Shown here: in pieces, positions 27,928-43,179 of the stretch
Position numbering within the stretch: position 1 is the stretch's first letter
How the letters are laid out: every line of letters starts with the position of its first letter
Source of the DNA: a virus
DNA: 46,051 nt
Reading direction: 5' to 3' (one strand)
IMG/VR virus record: IMGVR_UViG_3300042261_001794
Span: 1-46,051 of that record
Position numbers and translations under genes: made by a program
Notes under the pieces: model-generated
What the model was told of the DNA's origin: nothing
Seen by the model: the letters and a program-made list of their open reading frames with translations, nothing else
Database searches by the model: none

Positions 27928-28815
27928 TTATTTTATCCTTTTTAAATATTGCTGGTATTCTTCATTGTGTTCTCTCCACTTATACGAGTAACAATCAACC
28001 GGACATTTACCAATAACATCATAAAATAAATCAAAGCTTTCTGATGAAATACGGATACAAATACCTTTCTTTTTTCTATTTTTAACAGACTTAATCCCAT
28101 ATAAAGATAATTGATTTATTAAATGTTCAATTTCTTTTTCAGAAAAACAAAATGTAGAAAAATAAACTTGCCATGCTTTATTTTGTTTTCCTTTCTTTGT
28201 TCCAGTGCTAAAAAACCCAGCAGAACCATCACCAATAAACCATTGTCTAATCATTGTTGGTGTTAATATAAGATCTTTTGGAACTATCTTTTTTTGTTCA
28301 CCATTTTCAATAATGTAAAATGATTTATATATATTTAATAAATCAGGATGACACTGAGATCTTAATCTGTAAGATATTAATTGGCTTCCATCTTTTTTTT
28401 CGTATTTATGATTAATTATTGATGTTTCATTCCATTTTAAACAAGGGATACAAGAAGACAGCCATTTTAAATATTTTTCATATTTTGATGAATGTCTATA
28501 ATAAGGCAATCCATTAAATTCTATATTTCGATGATCTATTGTTAAATTTCCATCCCCTAACAATTCGCCTATTATTATTTCTATTTCATGATTTGTTAGA
28601 GATCTTTGTGGTTCTGTTCCGTTATGATGAACCATTAATGCTTCACTTTTAGACCTTAAAGGAATATTATATTTTTTCAAATAGGAAGAAACAGTTTTAT
28701 GTGATTTCATTCCATATAATTCAGCTATTTTATTAGTAGATAATCCATCAATTAAATAAAGCTTATTAAGATCTTCTTTTGTTATATTGTATTTTTGTTC
28801 GTTTTTAGCAGTCAT
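27928..28815 (-). CDS. Free-standing LAGLIDADG homing endonuclease
   Basis: A 295-aa protein. Residues about 10-60 are a helix-turn-helix (LSTNKIAELYGMKSHKTVSSYLKK), probably for extra DNA contact. Two LAGLIDADG motifs follow: IIIGELLGDGNL (about 80-91) and MIRQWFIGDGSA (about 188-199), making a monomeric two-motif enzyme that cuts a long target and promotes its own spread. It sits directly after the capsid-gene terminator and does not interrupt a recognisable gene, so it resembles a SegA/Mob-style intronless homing gene. AGGAG precedes the ATG. Two related endonuclease domains lie in the portal inteins nearby. Confidence 0.85.
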   Translation of the reverse strand: MTAKNEQKYNITKEDLNKLYLIDGLSTNKIAELYGMKSHKTVSSYLKKYNIPLRSKSEALMVHHNGTEPQRSLTNHEIEIIIGELLGDGNLTIDHRNIEFNGLPYYRHSSKYEKYLKWLSSCIPCLKWNETSIINHKYEKKDGSQLISYRLRSQCHPDLLNIYKSFYIIENGEQKKIVPKDLILTPTMIRQWFIGDGSAGFFSTGTKKGKQNKAWQVYFSTFCFSEKEIEHLINQLSLYGIKSVKNRKKKGICIRISSESFDLFYDVIGKCPVDCYSYKWREHNEEYQQYLKRIK

Positions 28816-28954: not shown

Positions 28955-29821
28955 TTAGCTGGTAGCTGTTAAGTTAATTTTGGCCAAAGCGTAGTCATTG
29001 ATGACTACGACTCCCAACTCTTCATAAATTACCCAACCAAGTCTTAAGTTTTTAGGATCATCTGCGGGTAAAACAGTGATGTCTTGACGAACAGGAATTG
29101 CACCAACATATTCAGCAGGAGCAAGTAGGAAAACTTGTCCTTCGGGAACACGATGGGAAACGTGAATGTCGCCTGTCCATAAGTGACCGAATAAACCGGA
29201 CATAAGAACGTCACGACGAGTTGCTTCGTCATAAACATCACGACCAAACAAACGAAGATCGGCATATTGACGTGGATGCATAACGATTTTAGCAACAGTC
29301 AGGTCATGTGATTCAATTGTGCTGAAAGCGTAGTTCAAGGAAGCGATAGACAAGTCACCAGATTGGGTAACAGTCTGATTGGAACGAACTGAAGTGCCGA
29401 TAGCGGCAAGGATTTCAGTATCTTCCAACTTTTGGATAGCTTCTTTTGATTTCATTTGGGCGCGGTCAACAATGTAGAAACGGCGAGCTTTGATTTCGCT
29501 CAAACGGATCTGAGGATTAACTGCGATTTCCCAAGTAGGAACAAGAACTTCTTCGCCTTCAACGATCATGTCAGGCACTGCGCCACGGCGAGCGACAACA
29601 TGAGCAACAGAGGTCACATCCTTCTCATATCTGGCAAGAGCGCCTTGGGGCAACTCATCAACCATAAGAAGTTTTCTACCAATTGCCTGATATTCAAGGG
29701 CGCGTTTGATTGGTTCAACCATTGCTTGGGCAAGGGCAACACGACCTTCAGGTGTTTCAAGAGCTTGAGCAATAATAGCTTCACGCTGCTTGTCATTGTA
29801 GTTAGATTTAATCATTGACAT
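28955..29821 (-). CDS. Major capsid protein (HK97-fold)
   Basis: A 288-aa shell protein. The N-terminal helix (residues 1-50), then VARRGAVPDMIVEGEEV and VPTWEIAVNP (E-loop/P-domain region), the spine-like helix QMKSKEAIQKLEDTEILAAIG, and the C-terminal HPRQYADLRLFGRDVYDEATRR and GWVIYEELGVVVIND stretches fit small HK97-fold capsid proteins of large phages. Codon use is clearly more GC-rich than in surrounding genes, as expected for the most abundant virion protein. AAAGGAG precedes the ATG, and a dedicated terminator follows. Position at the end of the portal-protease-scaffold run supports the call. The exact family is not named because I cannot run a profile search. Confidence 0.82.
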   Translation of the reverse strand: MSMIKSNYNDKQREAIIAQALETPEGRVALAQAMVEPIKRALEYQAIGRKLLMVDELPQGALARYEKDVTSVAHVVARRGAVPDMIVEGEEVLVPTWEIAVNPQIRLSEIKARRFYIVDRAQMKSKEAIQKLEDTEILAAIGTSVRSNQTVTQSGDLSIASLNYAFSTIESHDLTVAKIVMHPRQYADLRLFGRDVYDEATRRDVLMSGLFGHLWTGDIHVSHRVPEGQVFLLAPAEYVGAIPVRQDITVLPADDPKNLRLGWVIYEELGVVVINDYALAKINLTATS

Positions 29822-31881: not shown

Positions 31882-34800
31882 TTATTTCAAGTTATTCAAA
31901 TTAACTTTATACACTTTATCATTCTCTAAATTGGCAACGAAAACAAAGTTTCCATTAACTACGGCTTCAAGCTTACTGGCATCAAGACCTTTGGAATGGG
32001 AAACTCTGCTGATTGCAATTTTGGCAAAATCTTTTTTTGATGCAACAGCATTATTTTTCTTATTACCTGCTGGAGTTGGTTTGATGTAATTTTCTTTAGG
32101 GATTTTCTGAACATAAGTATCAGGATTTCCAGAAGTTTGTTTTACACCAGTTTCTGTGTCAAATTTAGGTTTTTTGCCACCAAGACCATCGCCAGAAGAA
32201 TCTCTTGGAACTACATCTGTATGAAGATTGGTTGCTTCGGGACCAAATCCGTATTCATTTTTTCTGACAGTTTTAGGATTTTTTACATCAGATCTGCCAG
32301 GATTGACTTTTGGATTTGATTTTGATTTATCTCTTGGAACGTTTAATGATTTTTCCTCAGAATTTTTTTCAACTTTATCTTCTTGCAAAGAATAAACCGG
32401 TTCAGTTGGTACTGATTTCATTGATTGTGCTTCTTTGGTTTGTTTTTTGCTTTTTGCAAAAAGTCCATTTTCTGATTTGTCAATTTCTGGAGTATCTTCC
32501 ATATCAATGTCGCTATCAGATTCAAAATCTTCTGATGGATCATCACTTTCAAAATCATCATCACTTTCAAAATCATCATCACTTTCAAAATCATCATCAC
32601 TTTCAAAATCATCACCAGATTCTAAATCAATGTCACCTGATTTAATCTTTACTTCAGCTAACAATTGTTCAAGTTCTTCAGGAGTTACTTCTTCGTTGTT
32701 TTTGATTTTTTCAGCAATATCACTAACAGGGCTTGAATCCTCATTGAATTCACCACCAAAATCTTCAGTAGAATCATCATCATTATCCATCATTGGATCG
32801 TTATCTATCATTGGATCGTCATCCATCATCGAATCATTTTCAGTGTCATCAACATCTTCAACAGTGGATGGAGATTCGGTTTCAGATGCTAAAGGGGCAG
32901 AATAAAGTTCTTGTGCTTTTTTGTTAAAATGTTTTGCAGATGCTTTCTTTTTAACAATTACTTCAACGCCTCTATCAGATCCTTGAATGGCTTCATCTTT
33001 TGCCAATGTACTGCCAGTAGCGTTTTCAGCCTTCATTTTTTTAGCAGTATTTTTATGATCAGAAGTATGAACAGGTTCGCCATCTTCAACTAAACCGACC
33101 TCTTCATTTTTGGGAACATCAGCTTCAGTTGATAAAGGCATATTAACGCCTAAAGCTTGAGCGACTTTAGAGATGTCCAAATTATTTCCACCAACTTTAT
33201 TTGAGCTAGAAACCATATCATGTCTTAAATATTCTGCTTTAGAGGCTTTTTTTGCTTGTGGGCAACAAGATGGATATTCGTCATCTTCATCATCATCAAA
33301 ATCTTCTTCGTCATCTTCATCTTCATCTTCTTTTTCAAATTCTTCAAGACCAGAATGGAACAAGCCCTTTAATGGATTAGCAATTTCTTCTTCGTCTTCA
33401 ACAACTTCTTCCAATCCGTCATCTTCAGTTTGTAAGTCATCATATTCAGAAATTTCTTCTGGAGTACCTTCGATTTCTTCAGAAACTTCAAGTGAATCAT
33501 CTCCACCTTCCATTTGTGAATCGGTTGTTACTTCGATTTCAAATTCTGAACCATCTTTATCCGTGCCCTTAACCAATATTGAATTAATTGTATTTGGTTC
33601 CATACCTAAATCAGTTTCGTTATCATTATCTTCAAATTCAACTTGATCGCCAGAATCTTCAGGCATTTCATCTTCCAATTCAACTATGTCGTCCATTGAT
33701 TCATCTCCTTCGTTTTCCTCATTTGATTCTTCAACGGCTTCTTCATGGATTTCGCCTTCTGAGGATTCATTGTCATTATCCAAATCTTCACCAGTTTCCT
33801 CTTCTTTTTCTTCAACTTCGCCATATGATTCTTCTAAATCATCATCGTCTTCATCAAGAAGTGCTAATTTAAGACCAGCTTTTCTTAATTTTTCAGATTC
33901 AACTTTTAAAGCAAGTTTTCTAATTGAAGAACAAACTTCAACAGCATCTGCATCGGTATAACCATTGCCGATTTGATCACTCATACAGGCCAACATTGGG
34001 TTTTCTTTACGTATAGTAGAAGCAAACTTATTAATGGATTTTCTACTGGAAAGAATTTGATGTAAAGCATCTTTAATTTCATCACAATTATCACATTTAG
34101 CGGTAACAGCATATCCGCCTTTTGAGCCGTTAGGATAAACCTTTTCTTTTTCGGCCAATTCAATATTTGGCAAGAAGGTTAAAGCGACTCTAACTTTATC
34201 ACCATTTGTTTTGGCTTTAACATGAGATTTACAACCACATTCAACGCATATACCGTTGGATTCTTTAAATGCAACTTTAACACCACCGCATTGTGGGCAA
34301 TGTAAACCAACAGGAGCAGGATCACTAATTTTGCAAGAAATACGTTTAGCAGCACCAATAAAATGTAATGGATTAAAATTACCAACCAATCTTAATGGAG
34401 CATTTCTAAGCCAACCATTGCTATGTGCCATTGGCATACCGCCACCCATTGGAGCGCCGCCCATTGGAGCGCCACCAGCAGGAGCACTTGCTCCAACAGG
34501 AGCAGAATTTAATTGATCATTAATTTCAGAACCTTCTGAGCCTTCTTCATTCATTTCTTCATTTTCTTCACCAGATTCTTTGGCAAGACCAACATCAGAA
34601 TGAACTTCAGGATTCAATAAATTCCAATTAATTTCTAATTCATATTCAGATTCACATTCGTTACATTTATATTTACCATTCATTGCATCGACATCTTCGC
34701 CACCGCAAACAGGACAAACAGCACCAAATGGTTTAGCTTCGCCTGATCCAGATGACATGTCATCATCTTCGGTTGGATCTTCTGCCATGGTAGGATCGGC

Positions 34801-37800
34801 ATTCATATTGCCACCACCACCGATGTCTTCAAGACCAGGACCGCCCATTGGTGAACCACCAGCAGGAGCACCACCGCCAGCAGGAGGCATTGTAGTTCCA
34901 GCAGGACTTTGGGCTTGTTTTTTCATATTAGATTTATTGGCAATTTTTTGTAATTTTTCGATAACTTCAGCAGCAAGTTGCATTTCTCCAACCTCGTTTT
35001 CAACTTCATTTCCAACTCCAACAGTATTGTCCATACCTGTTTCCATGGTTTGAACGTTATTTGGATTTTGTGTTTGATCTGCATTTTGATTTTGAGTTGA
35101 CAACCAATTAGTATAATCTTGATCGCTAACAATAACATTTGTAACAAACATGCCGTCTTCATATCTTACGCCGTCTATGCCTTTAGCGCCTTTTACCTGC
35201 GACATTAAATAATCACGCAAGAAACCTTGTTTAAGGGCTTTAGCTACGTCAGTAATTTTAAATTTATCAGCAATTTCAGATGCAGAAATGTTTACGGGAA
35301 TAGATTTAGCAAAACGTTTGCTCCAAGCGGATTTAACATTAGCCGTTTTTCCTTGTTCAACAGTTTCAATATCAACTTTATTATCAGCAATATTTTTCAA
35401 TTCATCAATTTTTTGATCGGCAACACGACCAATTTCATCTGTTAAAATGTCCATATCATCATAAAGCACATCAATTGTTTCTTCGATATAATCATTAGCT
35501 AACTCACTATTAACACCAATTTCGCTAATAATTGCATTTTCAGCAATTGAAGAAACATCGTCTGAAGTTAATTGTGCTTTTTTAACAATACTATTTAATT
35601 TAGCTGATTTAATTTTATTAGCATTAGGTTTAACCGTTGCCAAGGTTTTTGGAGAAATCCTATAAGCAACAACTGCATTAGCCAACCCATTAACAAAAGC
35701 TTCGATAACACGATCAGCAACATTCTTGGAAGAACCTTGTCTATGTCCATCGATTTGTCCTTCTAAAACTTCATCAACAGCTTCACCAAGTCTGTCCTTA
35801 CCGGCAAATTGAACTTCGGTTGTGCCTAATGAACCATCAGCAACATCATTATTCCAACGTTTAAATTGGTAGTCGAATGTTGATAATTGTTGTTCATGAA
35901 CAGGTCTATCGTTTTCAGCAACACCACGTTCAACACCAAATTTAGTAGGACGTGAATCATCTAATTGACTTTCTAAAACTTCACGGTCTTCTTTGACATC
36001 ATCAGAACGCTGATTTCTTGAAAAATCACCCTTTCCAGTTTCAGGTGTCTTAGGAACATTATCCAATTGTCTTTCTGTGGTTACACCAACTTGTCCAGAG
36101 GCTAAACTTTCATCGTTTTTGCGATTAAAATTACCAGACATTTCTTCCAATTGACGTTCCATGACCTTATCTACTGGAGGGGCATTTGTAAGAAGTGCCT
36201 CTTTAACATTTTTTTCATTATTGGCCATCTTTATCTCTCCATTTTCATGATAATTATCAGAAAGCGTCTGTATAATTCTTCCTGCAACAACCTGTGGATC
36301 AATTTTTGCCATTGAGACCAATTCATCACCAAGTTCGTCAGATGTTAAAGACGCTACTTTCTTATTATTTATATACCCTTCAATACCTTTTTTAGGATCA
36401 ATAACAACAGAATATGCTCCATCAGTTACCGTTATTGGTTCATTATTTACAATTTGCTCATCAAGCATTTGTGCAAATTTTTCACTAATTATTGAAGATG
36501 CTGATTTTCTAGCTTTATCTCTTCCACTAATAGGCATATCTATCACTCCCTCATTATTTTTAATTTTATTAATTTCATCTACTAAATTGCTTATTTCTGA
36601 AGCAATAGTGTTTAATTCCTTTATATTTATACCAAATTTATTAATATTGTTTGAATTATTTGATGCAACAGGCATTTGTTGTGGTGTTTGTTGTGGTGTT
36701 TGTTGTGGATTTTGTTTTAATAATTCATCCGTAGTTTGTCCACCAGTTGGTATTTGATTCATTTCGCCTTTGACCCCTTCTCCTTCATCAGGAGCATTTA
36801 GACCATTCTCACCAGTTCCATTGCCGTCATTAGCAAAGCCAGCTTCAACTAGCGAAATAATTAAATTTTGTAATTCTGATAACAATCCACCTATATCTTC
36901 TAAAAATTCAAAATCAACGTCTTTTGAAGCAAGAATTTGATTAGCAACTTCTTTTAACATATCCAAAGCCTTATTGAGTTTATCAATATCTTCGCCTCTG
37001 GCTTGTTTGTTTAAAGTTGCATTTTTTCTCATTGTAACTAATTCTTGATGACGACTAGCAACAACGGTTTTAACCTTTTCTCTCAATTCTGATAGTAATT
37101 CTGGACCAGTTTTAACATTTTGAATTGTGCAATTTTCACAAGCACCATCTGTTACAGCCGAAAGTTCAATAAATTTAATACCAAAATTTTTCTCATAAAC
37201 TTTTTGGCCTTGAACAGTTTTGCCTTTAAAATTTTTAATATGTTGGCAATAATCATCTTCACCAATAGCTTTATTTTTGCAAACAGAACATTCCGAAAAT
37301 TTAACACTACAACCCATGGACACATCAGAAATATATCCCTGTTTAATTCCTCTTGCCAATTGAGGATATGCTTTAGCATCAACCATTGCATCAACATAAG
37401 CACAATGGTTATCTAAATCATAAAAGGCATTTACGATTCTTCCTCTTGATTGTTCGATATCATCATTTTTATGATTTGTGAATATCGAGCAACCAATAAA
37501 AGTTTCAAATGCCTTTTTACCATTATCATCTTCTGCTAAAAGTTGTTCTTCTGAAAAATAATCGCCATTGTCATTTGCGCCATAATATAATTCGCCAGTC
37601 TTATCCGATCCACCGGCATCAATTGCTCTTGCACGAAAAATAACCCAATCATTAGGATCTTTATCTTCAAGTTCAGCAACCAAGTTAATAGAATTATTAG
37701 CATGAATTAAGTTGTTACTTATGTCATGCTTGATATATGATGCTTGTCTGGGACCAAATAATAAAATATCCCTATCAATAATTGAGGCTTTTTTTAAAAT

Positions 37801-37821
37801 TATAGCTTTTTTGATTAACAT
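31882..37821 (-). CDS. Prohead protease - scaffold fusion protein (1979 aa)
   Basis: Residues about 50-240 are a prohead serine protease of the gp21/HK97 type: H117 in FTNHKND, SRGRI (125-129), and nucleophile S168 in DVSMG, with C178/C181 and C192/H194 forming an inserted zinc site. The remainder is scaffold-like: Gln/Pro repeats (373-384), six spaced ExQ[L/I/F] motifs (555-690), Gly/Pro/Met-rich linkers, zinc ribbons near 1034 and 1174, and a long Asp/Glu-rich tract (about 1325-1770) with tandem DDFES. A C-terminal module is shared with the 425-aa neighbour. It would form the procapsid core and then mature it by proteolysis. AAAGGGG precedes the ATG. In-frame SD-ATG sites at residues 429 and 532 could give separate scaffold products, as in lambda C/Nu3. 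Such a long fusion is exceptional. Confidence 0.82.
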   Translation of the reverse strand: MLIKKAIILKKASIIDRDILLFGPRQASYIKHDISNNLIHANNSINLVAELEDKDPNDWVIFRARAIDAGGSDKTGELYYGANDNGDYFSEEQLLAEDDNGKKAFETFIGCSIFTNHKNDDIEQSRGRIVNAFYDLDNHCAYVDAMVDAKAYPQLARGIKQGYISDVSMGCSVKFSECSVCKNKAIGEDDYCQHIKNFKGKTVQGQKVYEKNFGIKFIELSAVTDGACENCTIQNVKTGPELLSELREKVKTVVASRHQELVTMRKNATLNKQARGEDIDKLNKALDMLKEVANQILASKDVDFEFLEDIGGLLSELQNLIISLVEAGFANDGNGTGENGLNAPDEGEGVKGEMNQIPTGGQTTDELLKQNPQQTPQQTPQQMPVASNNSNNINKFGINIKELNTIASEISNLVDEINKIKNNEGVIDMPISGRDKARKSASSIISEKFAQMLDEQIVNNEPITVTDGAYSVVIDPKKGIEGYINNKKVASLTSDELGDELVSMAKIDPQVVAGRIIQTLSDNYHENGEIKMANNEKNVKEALLTNAPPVDKVMERQLEEMSGNFNRKNDESLASGQVGVTTERQLDNVPKTPETGKGDFSRNQRSDDVKEDREVLESQLDDSRPTKFGVERGVAENDRPVHEQQLSTFDYQFKRWNNDVADGSLGTTEVQFAGKDRLGEAVDEVLEGQIDGHRQGSSKNVADRVIEAFVNGLANAVVAYRISPKTLATVKPNANKIKSAKLNSIVKKAQLTSDDVSSIAENAIISEIGVNSELANDYIEETIDVLYDDMDILTDEIGRVADQKIDELKNIADNKVDIETVEQGKTANVKSAWSKRFAKSIPVNISASEIADKFKITDVAKALKQGFLRDYLMSQVKGAKGIDGVRYEDGMFVTNVIVSDQDYTNWLSTQNQNADQTQNPNNVQTMETGMDNTVGVGNEVENEVGEMQLAAEVIEKLQKIANKSNMKKQAQSPAGTTMPPAGGGAPAGGSPMGGPGLEDIGGGGNMNADPTMAEDPTEDDDMSSGSGEAKPFGAVCPVCGGEDVDAMNGKYKCNECESEYELEINWNLLNPEVHSDVGLAKESGEENEEMNEEGSEGSEINDQLNSAPVGASAPAGGAPMGGAPMGGGMPMAHSNGWLRNAPLRLVGNFNPLHFIGAAKRISCKISDPAPVGLHCPQCGGVKVAFKESNGICVECGCKSHVKAKTNGDKVRVALTFLPNIELAEKEKVYPNGSKGGYAVTAKCDNCDEIKDALHQILSSRKSINKFASTIRKENPMLACMSDQIGNGYTDADAVEVCSSIRKLALKVESEKLRKAGLKLALLDEDDDDLEESYGEVEEKEEETGEDLDNDNESSEGEIHEEAVEESNEENEGDESMDDIVELEDEMPEDSGDQVEFEDNDNETDLGMEPNTINSILVKGTDKDGSEFEIEVTTDSQMEGGDDSLEVSEEIEGTPEEISEYDDLQTEDDGLEEVVEDEEEIANPLKGLFHSGLEEFEKEDEDEDDEEDFDDDEDDEYPSCCPQAKKASKAEYLRHDMVSSSNKVGGNNLDISKVAQALGVNMPLSTEADVPKNEEVGLVEDGEPVHTSDHKNTAKKMKAENATGSTLAKDEAIQGSDRGVEVIVKKKASAKHFNKKAQELYSAPLASETESPSTVEDVDDTENDSMMDDDPMIDNDPMMDNDDDSTEDFGGEFNEDSSPVSDIAEKIKNNEEVTPEELEQLLAEVKIKSGDIDLESGDDFESDDDFESDDDFESDDDFESDDPSEDFESDSDIDMEDTPEIDKSENGLFAKSKKQTKEAQSMKSVPTEPVYSLQEDKVEKNSEEKSLNVPRDKSKSNPKVNPGRSDVKNPKTVRKNEYGFGPEATNLHTDVVPRDSSGDGLGGKKPKFDTETGVKQTSGNPDTYVQKIPKENYIKPTPAGNKKNNAVASKKDFAKIAISRVSHSKGLDASKLEAVVNGNFVFVANLENDKVYKVNLNNLK
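32541..32612 (-). repeat. 18-bp tandem repeat coding DDFES-type units
   Basis: Four perfect head-to-tail 18-bp copies (plus strand CATCACTTTCAAAATCAT) encode an acidic DDDFES-type repeat at residues about 1737-1760 of the protease-scaffold fusion. Copy number may vary between strains. Confidence 0.85.
36226..36240 (-). promoter_or_regulatory. Internal SD and in-frame ATG (residue 532)
   Basis: On the minus strand GGAGAG is followed after 6 nt by ATG (MANNEKNVKEALL). This would start a product immediately before the six ExQL motifs. Confidence 0.45.
36535..36552 (-). promoter_or_regulatory. Internal SD and in-frame ATG (residue 429)
   Basis: GAGGGAG is followed after 8 nt by ATG (MPISGRDKARKSASS). 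A product starting here would lack the protease domain, as lambda Nu3 lacks the C protease. Confidence 0.45.
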
Positions 37822-38454: not shown

Positions 38455-41400
38455 TTACTTATCTAATAAATTAAATAATTCCTCTTTTTGATTAATTAGA
38501 TTTTCATAATCTTCATCATTATTATCAAAATCTTCTAAAACAATTTCATCAATCATAATTTCAGCAGTTTTTATATTATCCGTACTGGCTATTGTTTTCA
38601 TTTTTGGAACTTTGTTCGCTTTTTCTAAGTCTTTTGCTGTTTCAATAATTGTTGCAACAACATCCTCCAATGAGTATTTTATTTCGTCTTCAGTAAATCT
38701 TAAAACAGTCCAACCTAAACTTCTTAACCTATCATCTCTATTTTTATCTTTAGCCATATCTTCATCAGAGGAATGCCACTGTTTACCATCTGCCTCAACA
38801 ATTAATTTAATTGTTGGAAAGAAACCATCAACAACAACTCTTGGCATATGTTCTGGCTCTGGTTTTTGTTGCCATACAAAATCCATAGGGAGATTATTTG
38901 TTTTTTGTGCTTCCTCTATTTTTAAATATAATTTCATTTCTAATTCAGTTAACCTAATAGCCCCATCTCTAGGTCCATAATATAAACCATCTTCTGGAGA
39001 AACCTGTTTTGGTGTTTCTATCTTTGGAGATTTTGGTTCGTTTAATTTGTATTTATTTGGTCTATGAACATTTGGGGCAATATTTTTTGCTTGATTATAG
39101 TTTTTTAATTGCGATTCATATGACGCCATAGATGGTCCGCCAGACGGTGCTGCTGATCCACCAGCAGGACTAGGCATTCCGCCGCTCATTGAAGGAGCAA
39201 GTCCATCCCCAGGTAAACCGGGAGCGCCACCACCACCAGGTGTTTTGCCCATGCCACCACCTTTACCGCCACCGAAACCACCGCCTAAACCACCGCCTAA
39301 ACCACCACCGCCACCAAATGGTTTGTCTGAACCATCTGATGGAGCGATACCATTTTGTTGCTGATAACCAGTTTCAAGACGAACTCTTTCAGTTTCAACA
39401 TCATAATTAATACCAAGCTTTTCAAGTATAAATTGACTGGAAACAAGTCTTTTTTCCCACAATTGCATATATAATTGGTTTTTTTGTGATTCGTCTCTCA
39501 AGTTCAAATCAGACCATGTGATTTCTGGATAATCTAATATTTGATTTCCCTTTAGGTCTTTTTTATAAAAACCTCTCATTTGCGCTTCTAATCGATATAC
39601 TTTTTCAGTAATCCATTCAGCCAGCATATTTTGAACTGTAGATAATCTTTTAATAGTTGCTTCAATACCAATTGCAGCTTGTGAGTAGGACGGTCCTTCG
39701 CCCGAAAGCAACGCCTCATTAACTCCTAAACCTTTAATCAAAGCTTTGTCAATTAATTCATATTCTTTGGTTAACTGAAGTACTTTGCCCGAATTACCAT
39801 GAATTCCTAATTTACCATTTAATCTAACAATAAATATATGATTAGGAACTTCAAAACACCATACTTTTCCCTTGTAATCAATTTTTTTTCTATTTCTATT
39901 TATTTGTAAATCATTTCCATTTTTTTCTTTAGAATTATCTGACCAAAGAATTCTATAAATATCATTATGTTTATCATTTTTTCTTAATTCTTTAGATATT
40001 GTAGGGAAATAACCTAATTTAAATAAAATTTCTTGAATATCATCAGCTAATTGTTTGGAAGTTGTTGAATATCTATTATTTGCAACTTTATTCTTTGTGT
40101 ATTTTATATCCCGATCACCCATCATTAAACTTCTCAACAATGTTTCAAGATATTTTTTTGGAAGATTTTTCATCCAAATAGGTATTTTTTTATCTGCACA
40201 AACAAAACCAAAATTTGATGCAACAAATCTTCCAAATTCAGAATTATCAATAATAAAATTAATATTGGTATTTTTCCTTTTTTTATCTCTTCTATCATCA
40301 ATTTTTATTCTATAATTATTAAAAAGGTTATTCATAACGTCTTCTAAATGTTTATAATATTTACTATTTAAATTTTGAGATATAGAAATTCCAGTTATTG
40401 ATTTTAATTCTTTTCCATTGCTTCTTTGTGTTTCTCCTTCACTTAAATACCAACCAATAAAAGATAGCCATAATTTTAAATTTTTATCTTTTAAAATTGA
40501 TATTGACTCAAAATCAAATGAATCAGGAATATCTCCTTCAAAATTAATAGTATTTAAAAACTTAAATTTATTAGTTTTATTAATATTTTTAGATTCAATT
40601 AAATTATAATTATTTCCATAAATATATTTGTTTTCAAACGGACTCCACTCCCCTGTGTCTGAAAACATTTTATGATTATTCGTAACTTCAATATCTACAA
40701 ATTTCGATTTATATTTATGGATTGAACCATATGTTTTATAATCATAATCATATTCAAATTTATTAATATATTTATGATATTCCATATTTTTTGTTTCTTG
40801 ATTATATGTTGCGATTAAATCATCTTCAGTTACATCGTAATATTTTAAAAAACCTCTATGAGTTAAAACCTCAACATTTTCGGTATAGCATGACCCTACC
40901 CATTGAAAATCAAAATTATTATGAGTAACCAATGTTAAATTTGGATCGTTAGCGGTCATTGCTAATTGCCTTTGAGTATCAGCAATGTCTTCTGGCCCAG
41001 CCGGTTTTAAATCACTACCAATTTTACAGATTTTTATTGGTAAAATATGCCTATCGGCAACAATCCATTGTGCTTGACGTAACTTATCCTGATATGCTAA
41101 TGTTGGAAATAATGGAGCAATAATTGAACGACCATAAGCATTATAAGGAATTTCATCATGCTTCATATGTGTAATTGTACGGTTGCTTAATGGAATTGGT
41201 TTTTGCGAAAGAATTAATTTTTTCATATGATCCGGTATTTTATTATATAATTCGACCGGTTTTTTAGACCAAACAATTTGTTTCATTTCATCATCAGGAA
41301 TAAATGATATAATTGGTTCTGAAGGGTTTAATTTATTTACTTGAACATCAATCCAATCTGGATTCATGATAGAAATATTACCAATTTGTCCACCTTCATG

Positions 41401-43179
41401 ATTACAAACATTACCATCTGACATTATTCCAAAACCATGACATTTTGGACATTGGATGGATATCATAACAAAGGCATCACCTAATGCAAAATATTCATAT
41501 GCAATTAATGGAAGATGATATTCTAATCTTAATCTTTTCTTTAGTTTATCAAAATGTTCTTTACGATGTGCATGATTAATCACATTTTCAAATCCATGAA
41601 ATGGGAATTGTGCATAAAATCTTAATGATGAAGCAATTGTAGGATCATTCTGTGCAAAAAATCTACAATTACTTACTTTAAAACCAGAGCAAACATAACT
41701 TCTCTCAGGGTCTATTTGGATATCATAACCTATTCCATTATATAAATATTCTGTTATTTCACAAATTTGCTGTGCGAAATATTTATTTCCATCTTCATCT
41801 TTAGTAAAAAATTTCAAAACTCTATCGCCATTAGATTCATAATTGAAATTTTCATCAATTTTGCTAGATCTCATGTAAGGTTTTAATTTATATACTTCGC
41901 TTGCAGGAACAAATATTCTATAAATCCATTCTGAACTATGTTTATATGTTTTCTCTTGATCAGTATCTACATAATCATTATAATGAGGATATTTATTTAA
42001 ACTACAATTAATACCACACATTAAAAGCATGAAATAAAGTTGATCAGCCATATCTTTAGATACATTATTTGCAATTAGTTTGGACTGACCATTAAAAGAA
42101 CCGTCTCCATCAAAATAACCACCAAGAATATGAAGCATTTGTTCTTTTGTGAGGTGTAATATTTCTTTTGTGAATTTTTTATTATCTAGTTTTCCTTTTA
42201 TGAAAATTGAGAATTCATCATAAGATCTTTTATCTTCAGAATAAATTCTTCTGCAATTTACACTATTTGAATGTTCTTTATTTTTACATGAGGAATATCT
42301 TTGATTAAGAATATTTTCTATATTTGTAATTATATTTGGTCTATCAGTTCCACAATTATAATGGATATAACCAAAATTACCATGTTCGCATAAAGTTCCA
42401 TCGGCAATTTCTAATCCAACAGCCCACATAAAATCGTTATCAAAATCAACATATTTTGATTCTAAAAATTTAGGAACAGGTGTGAGAAGAAAGTCTTTTA
42501 ATTCAACCTCTTCTGCTTTGATTCTTTCAATTTTCCACTTACTATTATTGATGAATTCTTTTTTACCAGTGTTTCCACGCGATCCTTCTCTATAAAGTTT
42601 TTGTTCATATTTTTTAACAGTATCTTTAAGTTTTTTACCTTTAATAACATAAACATTATGTTCTTCAGAAACAGAAAGATCATTGTAATAACCAAATGTT
42701 TTTAATTTAATAAATCTTTTATCGCTACACTCTCTTTCGAAATAATTAATAGGTTTACGTAATTCTCCAACCCCACCATGTATATTGCTTGAAATGATGT
42801 TTTCATAAACAATTCCATTTGTTAAAGTGTCCTGAGTAATTGCTGTTGGCGTAAATTTAAATTCGGAAATTGGAACATAAGTCAAATCCTCTTGCAACAT
42901 AAGTCCTTTAGAATCAATTAGCCACATGTAAACTTCTCTTCGTTTAGTGGGAATTTGCCAATTAACAGGTGTGTGTATAGGGTTATAAAATCCAGCAGAA
43001 GTATAAGCAATTGAATTTGCCGATCCAAACACAGACGAAGAGGCATAATTAGCAAATTTTAATTTTGGTGAATTATTATTACTATTTTTTTTAACTAAAA
43101 TTGATTCATTTATTATATCTTCTGCTGATCTGCCATCTTTTGTAAAGCTATTACCAGCCATTTTAAACACATAAGTCAT
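38455..43179 (-). CDS. Portal protein with two inteins and a C-terminal nuclease-like domain
   Basis: A 1574-aa precursor. Portal segments are residues 1-86, 505-763 and 1130-about 1280: RREVYMW joining CRFFAQNDPTIASSLRFYAQFP, EYFALGDAF, a zinc site (C577, C580, C592, H594), NPDWIDV, and GLGVNEALLSGEG. Two inteins (87-504 and 764-1129) each carry a LAGLIDADG endonuclease. After splicing the protein would be about 790 aa. A Gly/Pro-rich linker (about 1288-1350) leads to a Vsr/DUF559-like PD-(D/E)XK domain: D1451, E1462, D1464-G, W1468-H1469, then RDDRLRSLGWTVLRF (1481-1495). The portal forms the DNA-entry ring; the nuclease tail is unexpected. AGGAG precedes the ATG. Confidence 0.85.
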   Translation of the reverse strand: MTYVFKMAGNSFTKDGRSAEDIINESILVKKNSNNNSPKLKFANYASSSVFGSANSIAYTSAGFYNPIHTPVNWQIPTKRREVYMWLIDSKGLMLQEDLTYVPISEFKFTPTAITQDTLTNGIVYENIISSNIHGGVGELRKPINYFERECSDKRFIKLKTFGYYNDLSVSEEHNVYVIKGKKLKDTVKKYEQKLYREGSRGNTGKKEFINNSKWKIERIKAEEVELKDFLLTPVPKFLESKYVDFDNDFMWAVGLEIADGTLCEHGNFGYIHYNCGTDRPNIITNIENILNQRYSSCKNKEHSNSVNCRRIYSEDKRSYDEFSIFIKGKLDNKKFTKEILHLTKEQMLHILGGYFDGDGSFNGQSKLIANNVSKDMADQLYFMLLMCGINCSLNKYPHYNDYVDTDQEKTYKHSSEWIYRIFVPASEVYKLKPYMRSSKIDENFNYESNGDRVLKFFTKDEDGNKYFAQQICEITEYLYNGIGYDIQIDPERSYVCSGFKVSNCRFFAQNDPTIASSLRFYAQFPFHGFENVINHAHRKEHFDKLKKRLRLEYHLPLIAYEYFALGDAFVMISIQCPKCHGFGIMSDGNVCNHEGGQIGNISIMNPDWIDVQVNKLNPSEPIISFIPDDEMKQIVWSKKPVELYNKIPDHMKKLILSQKPIPLSNRTITHMKHDEIPYNAYGRSIIAPLFPTLAYQDKLRQAQWIVADRHILPIKICKIGSDLKPAGPEDIADTQRQLAMTANDPNLTLVTHNNFDFQWVGSCYTENVEVLTHRGFLKYYDVTEDDLIATYNQETKNMEYHKYINKFEYDYDYKTYGSIHKYKSKFVDIEVTNNHKMFSDTGEWSPFENKYIYGNNYNLIESKNINKTNKFKFLNTINFEGDIPDSFDFESISILKDKNLKLWLSFIGWYLSEGETQRSNGKELKSITGISISQNLNSKYYKHLEDVMNNLFNNYRIKIDDRRDKKRKNTNINFIIDNSEFGRFVASNFGFVCADKKIPIWMKNLPKKYLETLLRSLMMGDRDIKYTKNKVANNRYSTTSKQLADDIQEILFKLGYFPTISKELRKNDKHNDIYRILWSDNSKEKNGNDLQINRNRKKIDYKGKVWCFEVPNHIFIVRLNGKLGIHGNSGKVLQLTKEYELIDKALIKGLGVNEALLSGEGPSYSQAAIGIEATIKRLSTVQNMLAEWITEKVYRLEAQMRGFYKKDLKGNQILDYPEITWSDLNLRDESQKNQLYMQLWEKRLVSSQFILEKLGINYDVETERVRLETGYQQQNGIAPSDGSDKPFGGGGGLGGGLGGGFGGGKGGGMGKTPGGGGAPGLPGDGLAPSMSGGMPSPAGGSAAPSGGPSMASYESQLKNYNQAKNIAPNVHRPNKYKLNEPKSPKIETPKQVSPEDGLYYGPRDGAIRLTELEMKLYLKIEEAQKTNNLPMDFVWQQKPEPEHMPRVVVDGFFPTIKLIVEADGKQWHSSDEDMAKDKNRDDRLRSLGWTVLRFTEDEIKYSLEDVVATIIETAKDLEKANKVPKMKTIASTDNIKTAEIMIDEIVLEDFDNNDEDYENLINQKEELFNLLDK
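39793..40890 (-). mobile_element. Portal intein 2 (class 1 type, LAGLIDADG)
   Basis: 366 aa, C764 to N1129. Cys1 begins CYTENVEVLTHRGF (block A), block B is VDIEVTNNHKMF, and the LAGLIDADG motifs lie at LSFIGWYLSEGE (905-916) and LETLLRSLMMGD (1011-1022). Block F/G has VWCFEVPNHIF and ends GIHGN with Ser+1. The C-terminal His is displaced one residue (HGN rather than HN). Exteins QWVGS and SGKVLQLTKEYE join cleanly. Confidence 0.85.
41668..42921 (-). mobile_element. Portal intein 1 with non-canonical ends (LAGLIDADG)
   Basis: 418 aa, L87 to N504, with Cys+1 at C505. Block A-like sequence is GLMLQEDLTYVPISEF, block B is LSVSEEHNVYV, and the endonuclease motifs are VGLEIADGT (254-262) and ILGGYFDGDGS (351-361). 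Block F is YDIQIDPERSYV and the end is GFKVSN. Residue 1 is Leu and the penultimate residue is Ser instead of His, so splicing would need a class 2-like direct attack by Cys+1, or may be impaired. Confidence 0.78.

Follow-up and report, generated by a model that had tools for sequence, protein, structure and literature searches.

Leu1 of a phage portal intein: a family with free residue 1 and a putative class 2-like splicing route

A large phage has, in its portal gene, an intein that begins with leucine, which raises the question of whether such an intein can be spliced and, if so, which residue would start the reaction. The gene lies in a window of 46,051 nucleotides (the whole stretch of DNA analysed) as one open frame of 1574 amino acids (38455..43179, minus strand). 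Its relatives include the phage G portal gp14, and it carries two inteins and a C-terminal DUF559/REase-like domain. The sequence-only reading had joined the exteins of the first intein (intein-1) as REVYMW and CRFF, with the intein starting at Leu87 of the portal and ending in VSN before Cys+1. It had offered two interpretations, a class 2-like mechanism with Leu1 or a splicing-impaired element. Class 2 splicing has so far rested on a single lineage, KlbA, always with Ala1, and both the basis of the amide attack by Cys+1 and the need for Ala have remained unclear. Our analysis favours the first interpretation. Intein-1 is likely (probability of approximately 0.74) a working portal intein that splices without a residue-1 nucleophile by a class 2-like route, with splicing itself and the order of its steps being inferred.

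Junctions and fold of intein-1

Intein-1 (41668..42921, minus strand; portal residues 87-504) is translated as 418 amino acids, LIDSKGLMLQEDLTYV...GYDIQIDPERSYVCSGFKVSN, and extends from Leu1 to Asn418 over a HINT splicing domain and a LAGLIDADG endonuclease. It starts with LIDSKG and ends with GFKVSN, and is flanked by KRREVYMW, the Trp of which is portal residue 86, and by CRFFAQND. The N-extein, portal residues 1-86 ending in ...FYNPIHTPVNWQIPTKRREVYMW (42922..43179, minus strand), was delimited by alignment with intein-free portals. These were collected by a scan for the motif NWQxxxKRxE and counted as distinct by their first 110 amino acids, which gave 45 empty sites, 44 of them with Trp at position −1. 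The intein-free gp14 of phage G joins directly as NEW/CRHFY (the slash marks the insertion site) and another empty portal, L007, as YQQ/CRHFY, while L080, the nearest-looking empty portal with a window-like YMW flank, reads YMW/NRFF, with Asn at +1. The search for an intein-free homologue that would place the N-terminal junction at a Cys, Ser or Ala instead gave none; no such shift inside intein-1 was supported among the 45 distinct intein-free portals. Ser1 inteins at the same portal site begin directly after the same Trp. In the AlphaFold model (pLDDT 80.5, pTM 0.85), VIA-align paired model residue 15 (Leu1) with residue 1, and model residue 432 (Asn418) with the last residue, of the solved inteins 2cw7 and 1dq3. 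The intein-free portals, the Ser1 inteins and the model all give the same boundary, the junctions are thus secure, and the proposed join held exactly.

The features expected of an intein (HINT fold, blocks A, B, F and G, an uninterrupted frame and homologues that read through the site) were all present, with block A weakly conserved, and the model predicts a complete HINT and LAGLIDADG intein. Searches of solved structures by sequence with the intein-1 family returned weak endonuclease matches only. On the minus strand, the residue-1 codon is CTA (Leu; 42919..42921), block B reads SEEH from Ser85 (B:7) to His88 (B:10) (42658..42669), Asp400 (F:4) lies inside GYDIQIDPER (41722..41724), Ser417 (G:6) and Asn418 (G:7) close the intein (41668..41673), and Cys+1, the proposed first nucleophile, follows at 41665..41667. 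The further claims made from the sequence alone, that the usual first residue and the penultimate His (here Ser417) are both missing and that Asp at F:4 does not match the class 3 WCT pattern, also held.

A same-site family in which residue 1 varies

Homologues of intein-1 were found by searching viral contigs. Fourteen members with a readable N-terminus, including the window, were recovered from many metagenomes, and one further copy (L028) is truncated. All copies are metagenome contigs; L120 and L063 represent the same contig, and an identical intein sequence occurs in L027 and L047, which come from two separate assemblies. Residue 1 is Leu in five members (the window, L027, L049, L051 and L101), Met in two (L020 and L120), Gln in two (L026 and L052), and Val (L002), Ser (L046), Asp (L048), Lys (L050) or Glu (L053) in one each. 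In the 13 members found first, its entropy of 2.78 bits ranked 308 among 319 ungapped intein columns, so residue 1 is one of the most variable positions of the family.

The remaining splicing positions showed the opposite pattern. Trp−1, His B:10, Ser G:6, Asn G:7, Arg+2 and Phe+3 are the same in all 14 members, and Asp F:4 is kept, although in L101 a one-residue insertion in block F shifts it by one when numbering runs back from the end. Position B:7 is Ser (as in the window) or Thr in every member except L026, which has His. Ser G:6 is encoded by both AGY (AGT) and TCN codons; since AGT and TCN differ at two bases, this residue is probably under selection, beyond what recent descent alone would give. 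Among the 13 members found first, only columns 14, 34, 288, 352, 412 and 417 of the intein consist entirely of Cys, Ser or Thr, and no conserved Cys was found within the intein.

Despite a median identity of 0.45, the frames have stayed open throughout the family, and the exteins, the two splice junctions and the motifs of the endonuclease are retained. In the measurable pairs, purifying selection was detected on the N-extein, splicing domain, endonuclease and C-extein, e.g., dN/dS values of 0.06 (splicing domain) and 0.08 (C-extein) for L027 and L050; synonymous sites were near saturation in most pairs. The absence of the nucleophile in intein-1 is therefore unlikely to reflect chance or decay. 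A single scan covering 84,980 prokaryote species genomes turned up no relative of the family, and no full-length relative was found in 50,697 phage records.

The residue following the intein was also informative. Cys+1 is present in 13 of the 14 family members, whereas among the 45 distinct intein-free portals this position is occupied by Ala in 29, Ser in 10, Cys in five and Asn in one (Fisher p = 2.7e-8 for Cys, uncorrected for kinship). Thus, it is the intein and not the portal that needs the Cys, either for use in splicing or as a requirement of the homing target. The exception is L101 (contig 3300035698_027016, minus strand of the locus, frame from base 528 of the reverse complement), a Leu1 intein that ends in YVCSN/S, with Cys at G:5 and Ser at +1. 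It has no obvious strong nucleophile at either junction and is unexplained.

Eight further inteins at the same portal site (L030, L070, L096, L099, L107, L108, L111 and L117) all begin with Ser. The six complete copies (L030, L070, L096, L099, L107 and L111) are homologous to the variable-residue family over the whole length, and they end in Gln with a varied penultimate residue (HQ, NQ, YQ or FQ). The two groups share insertion after the same Trp and a LAGLIDADG endonuclease, but the Ser1 group differs in its invariant Ser1, its terminal Gln and a +1 residue that is either Cys or Ser. In the tree, the Ser1 inteins form one clade and the variable-residue inteins the other, with 100/100 support under midpoint rooting only. 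L114 carries a Cys1 intein at this site, and intein-2 of the window portal (39793..40890, minus strand), which served as a control with a normal first residue, runs from Cys1 to HGN/S and has Cys at F:4; it is absent from L002, the portal of which reads across that site. Taken together, the Ser1 group, L114 and intein-2 indicate that ordinary inteins keep their nucleophile in the same genes.

Further inteins were observed shortly downstream of the first site in portals L046, L048, L053, L083, L096, L099, L101 and L126. They are short and of the CFTP, CFDP or CFEP type, and some of these genes hold at least two inteins.

Comparison with the known intein classes

Class 1 requires Cys, Ser or Thr at residue 1, which intein-1 lacks and only one of the 14 family members (L046, Ser) provides. 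Class 3 inteins, linked to phages (PMC3196547, PMC5050341) and typified by the mycobacteriophage Bethlehem DnaB intein, likewise have no residue-1 nucleophile and carry the WCT motif. This motif was rejected for the family: Trp B:12 and Cys F:4 occur in no member and Thr G:5 in four of 14, with intein-1 itself having Val, Asp and Val at B:12, F:4 and G:5, respectively.

Class 2 inteins had been found in KlbA genes only (PMC3196547), and a review describes every class 2 intein known at its writing as a KlbA orthologue with Ala1 and Ser G:6 and lists Thr B:7, His B:10 and Asp F:4 as requirements (PMC4031507). No non-KlbA class 2 intein was reported in the open-access literature searched. The portal family lacks a residue-1 nucleophile in 13 of 14 members, has Ser G:6 in all 14 and Cys+1 in 13, and matches the B:7, B:10 and F:4 requirement, with Ser replacing Thr at B:7 of the window. 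Like the Mja KlbA intein (PDB 2jmz, 2jnq) and its orthologues, intein-1 adopts a predicted HINT fold without Cys, Ser or Thr at residue 1 and combines Ser G:6, Asn G:7, Cys+1, Asp F:4 and His B:10. The C-terminal pattern F-x-V-S-N/C is common to both (GFAVSN in KlbA, GFKVSN in intein-1), the KlbA relatives that reach the C-terminus end in SN/C (4/4), and 2jmz matched the intein-1 model with a Z score of 16.1.

There are also differences from KlbA. Residue 1 is Ala in Mja KlbA and in 5/5 relatives checked (L065-L069), in contrast to the eight residues seen in the portal family; KlbA is an archaeal gene whereas the family resides in a phage portal gene; and the F:13 His is replaced in intein-1 by Arg (in DPER), unlike in KlbA. 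Splicing-domain profiles compared with HHalign gave a weak match to KlbA (68.7%, E = 4.6e-5) and a strong one to the same-site Ser1 group (98.4%, E = 4.5e-15). Neither Ala1 nor KlbA orthology therefore applies, and the nearest kin are the Ser1 inteins found at this portal site. The best whole-intein structural match, TliVMA (7qsu; Z 30.8, rmsd 3.3 over 330 residues), is an archaeal VMA intein with an endonuclease; it differs from intein-1 in being class 1 by its native Cys1 (the crystal is of a C1A mutant) and shares 18% identity. Judging from sequence and prediction, the intein-1 family is likely class 2-like without being a KlbA-type member, and would represent a separate phage lineage.

Proposed mechanism and alternative explanations

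In the proposed route, Cys+1 would attack the Trp86-Leu1 peptide bond directly to give a branched (thio)ester, Asn418 would cyclise to release the intein, and an S-to-N shift would yield ...REVYMW-CRFF..., with residue 1 contributing its backbone only. Since residue 1 offers no nucleophile, Cys F:4 and Trp B:12 are missing and Cys is conserved nowhere else, attack by Cys+1 is the simplest first step. The class 2-like reading is favoured because residue 1 varies against a background of conserved exteins and otherwise conserved splicing residues, and because Ser G:6, Cys+1, Asp F:4 and His B:10 fit the published description of class 2 (PMC4031507). The analysis shows where the intein begins and ends, which fold is predicted, that residue 1 varies, and that His B:10, Asp F:4, Ser G:6, Asn G:7 and Cys+1 are conserved, whereas splicing, ligation, the branch point and the direct attack are inferred from sequence and prediction, no splicing having been observed. 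Besides this lack of observed splicing and the reliance on metagenome contigs, the following weighs against this reading: L101, with Leu1, has Ser+1, a weak nucleophile for amide attack; L046, with Ser1, could belong to class 1; position B:7 is His in L026; and a penultimate Ser is not specific to class 2, since some class 1 inteins of phages have it too (PMC5050341).

The second interpretation offered earlier, that splicing was lost and intein-1 is a decaying element in a portal that is dead or complemented by another copy, is disfavoured and appears very unlikely, but cannot be excluded without a splicing assay. In its support, non-conservative changes of residue 1 block splicing of class 1 inteins, and a phage-derived pseudogene intein has been described (PMC3196547). 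Against it stand the diverged copies with their retained frames, junctions, endonuclease motifs and exteins and the purifying selection wherever it could be measured; decay would not have spared Ser G:6, Asn G:7 and Cys+1.

Cleavage alone, in which cyclisation of Asn418 releases the C-extein while the portal functions without a ligated N-extein of 86 amino acids, is similarly improbable. The N-extein is indeed short and its first ~50 residues are poorly conserved. However, FxSPxHTPxNWQIxxKRxExxQW is conserved in both intein-bearing and intein-free portals, and since its codons show synonymous change, it is kept as protein. Asn cyclisation alone would also leave the maintained Cys+1 unexplained.

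A first attack by an internal residue, e.g., Thr34 in D-x-x-T-x-G or Ser412, would make the family a new class 3 analogue. Both residues are invariant in the 13 members found first, and internal nucleophiles have evolved before in phage inteins (class 3). Nevertheless, this is very unlikely: the family lacks the Cys F:4 and Trp B:12 of class 3, the first step would have to use a weak nucleophile (Thr or Ser), Ser412 occupies the position of the block G Asn of other inteins and is Asp in L101, and the intein contains no conserved Cys. Cys65 was separately considered and rejected; it is invariant in the first three members and lost in L026, L046, L048, L052 and L053.

A misplaced junction or an assembly or sequencing error hiding an ordinary class 1 intein is all but ruled out: although metagenome assemblies are the only source, the 14 contigs have residues of different kinds at position 1, L027 and L047 agree across separate assemblies, and intein-free homologues, Ser1 inteins and structure fix the same junction.

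Returning to the class 2-like reading, the data suggest a second, phage-borne lineage of inteins that would splice without a starting nucleophile. A bolder version, towards which the evidence leans by a narrow margin, is that direct-attack (class 2-type) splicing had a second origin, among phage portal inteins descended from a same-site Ser1 class 1 ancestor, and went beyond KlbA in placing no requirement on the residue 1 side chain, so that Asp, Glu, Lys, Gln and bulky hydrophobics would all serve. The class 1 to class 2-like direction is inferred and not proven by the midpoint-rooted tree. The free-residue-1 family and its Ser1 sister group, at the same site of the same gene, offer a natural comparison for this change, and the family might also supply protein engineering with inteins that accept whichever residue follows the N-terminal junction.

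Several features of the surrounding DNA were also recorded. The C-terminal DUF559 domain of the portal (38638..38847, minus strand; Pfam PF04480, E = 2.3e-12) is unusual, as a nuclease-like domain on a portal, and a similar C-terminal stretch was recognised by eye in portals L002, L007, L020, L026, L027, L030 and L063. An ORF at 27928-28815 (minus strand) resembles, by eye, a free-standing LAGLIDADG-type homing endonuclease and adjoins a major capsid protein-like ORF (28955-29821, also by eye). Between the capsid and portal genes lies an ORF of 1979 amino acids (31882-37821, minus strand), which is cysteine-rich (zinc ribbon-like) and contains long acidic repeat stretches.
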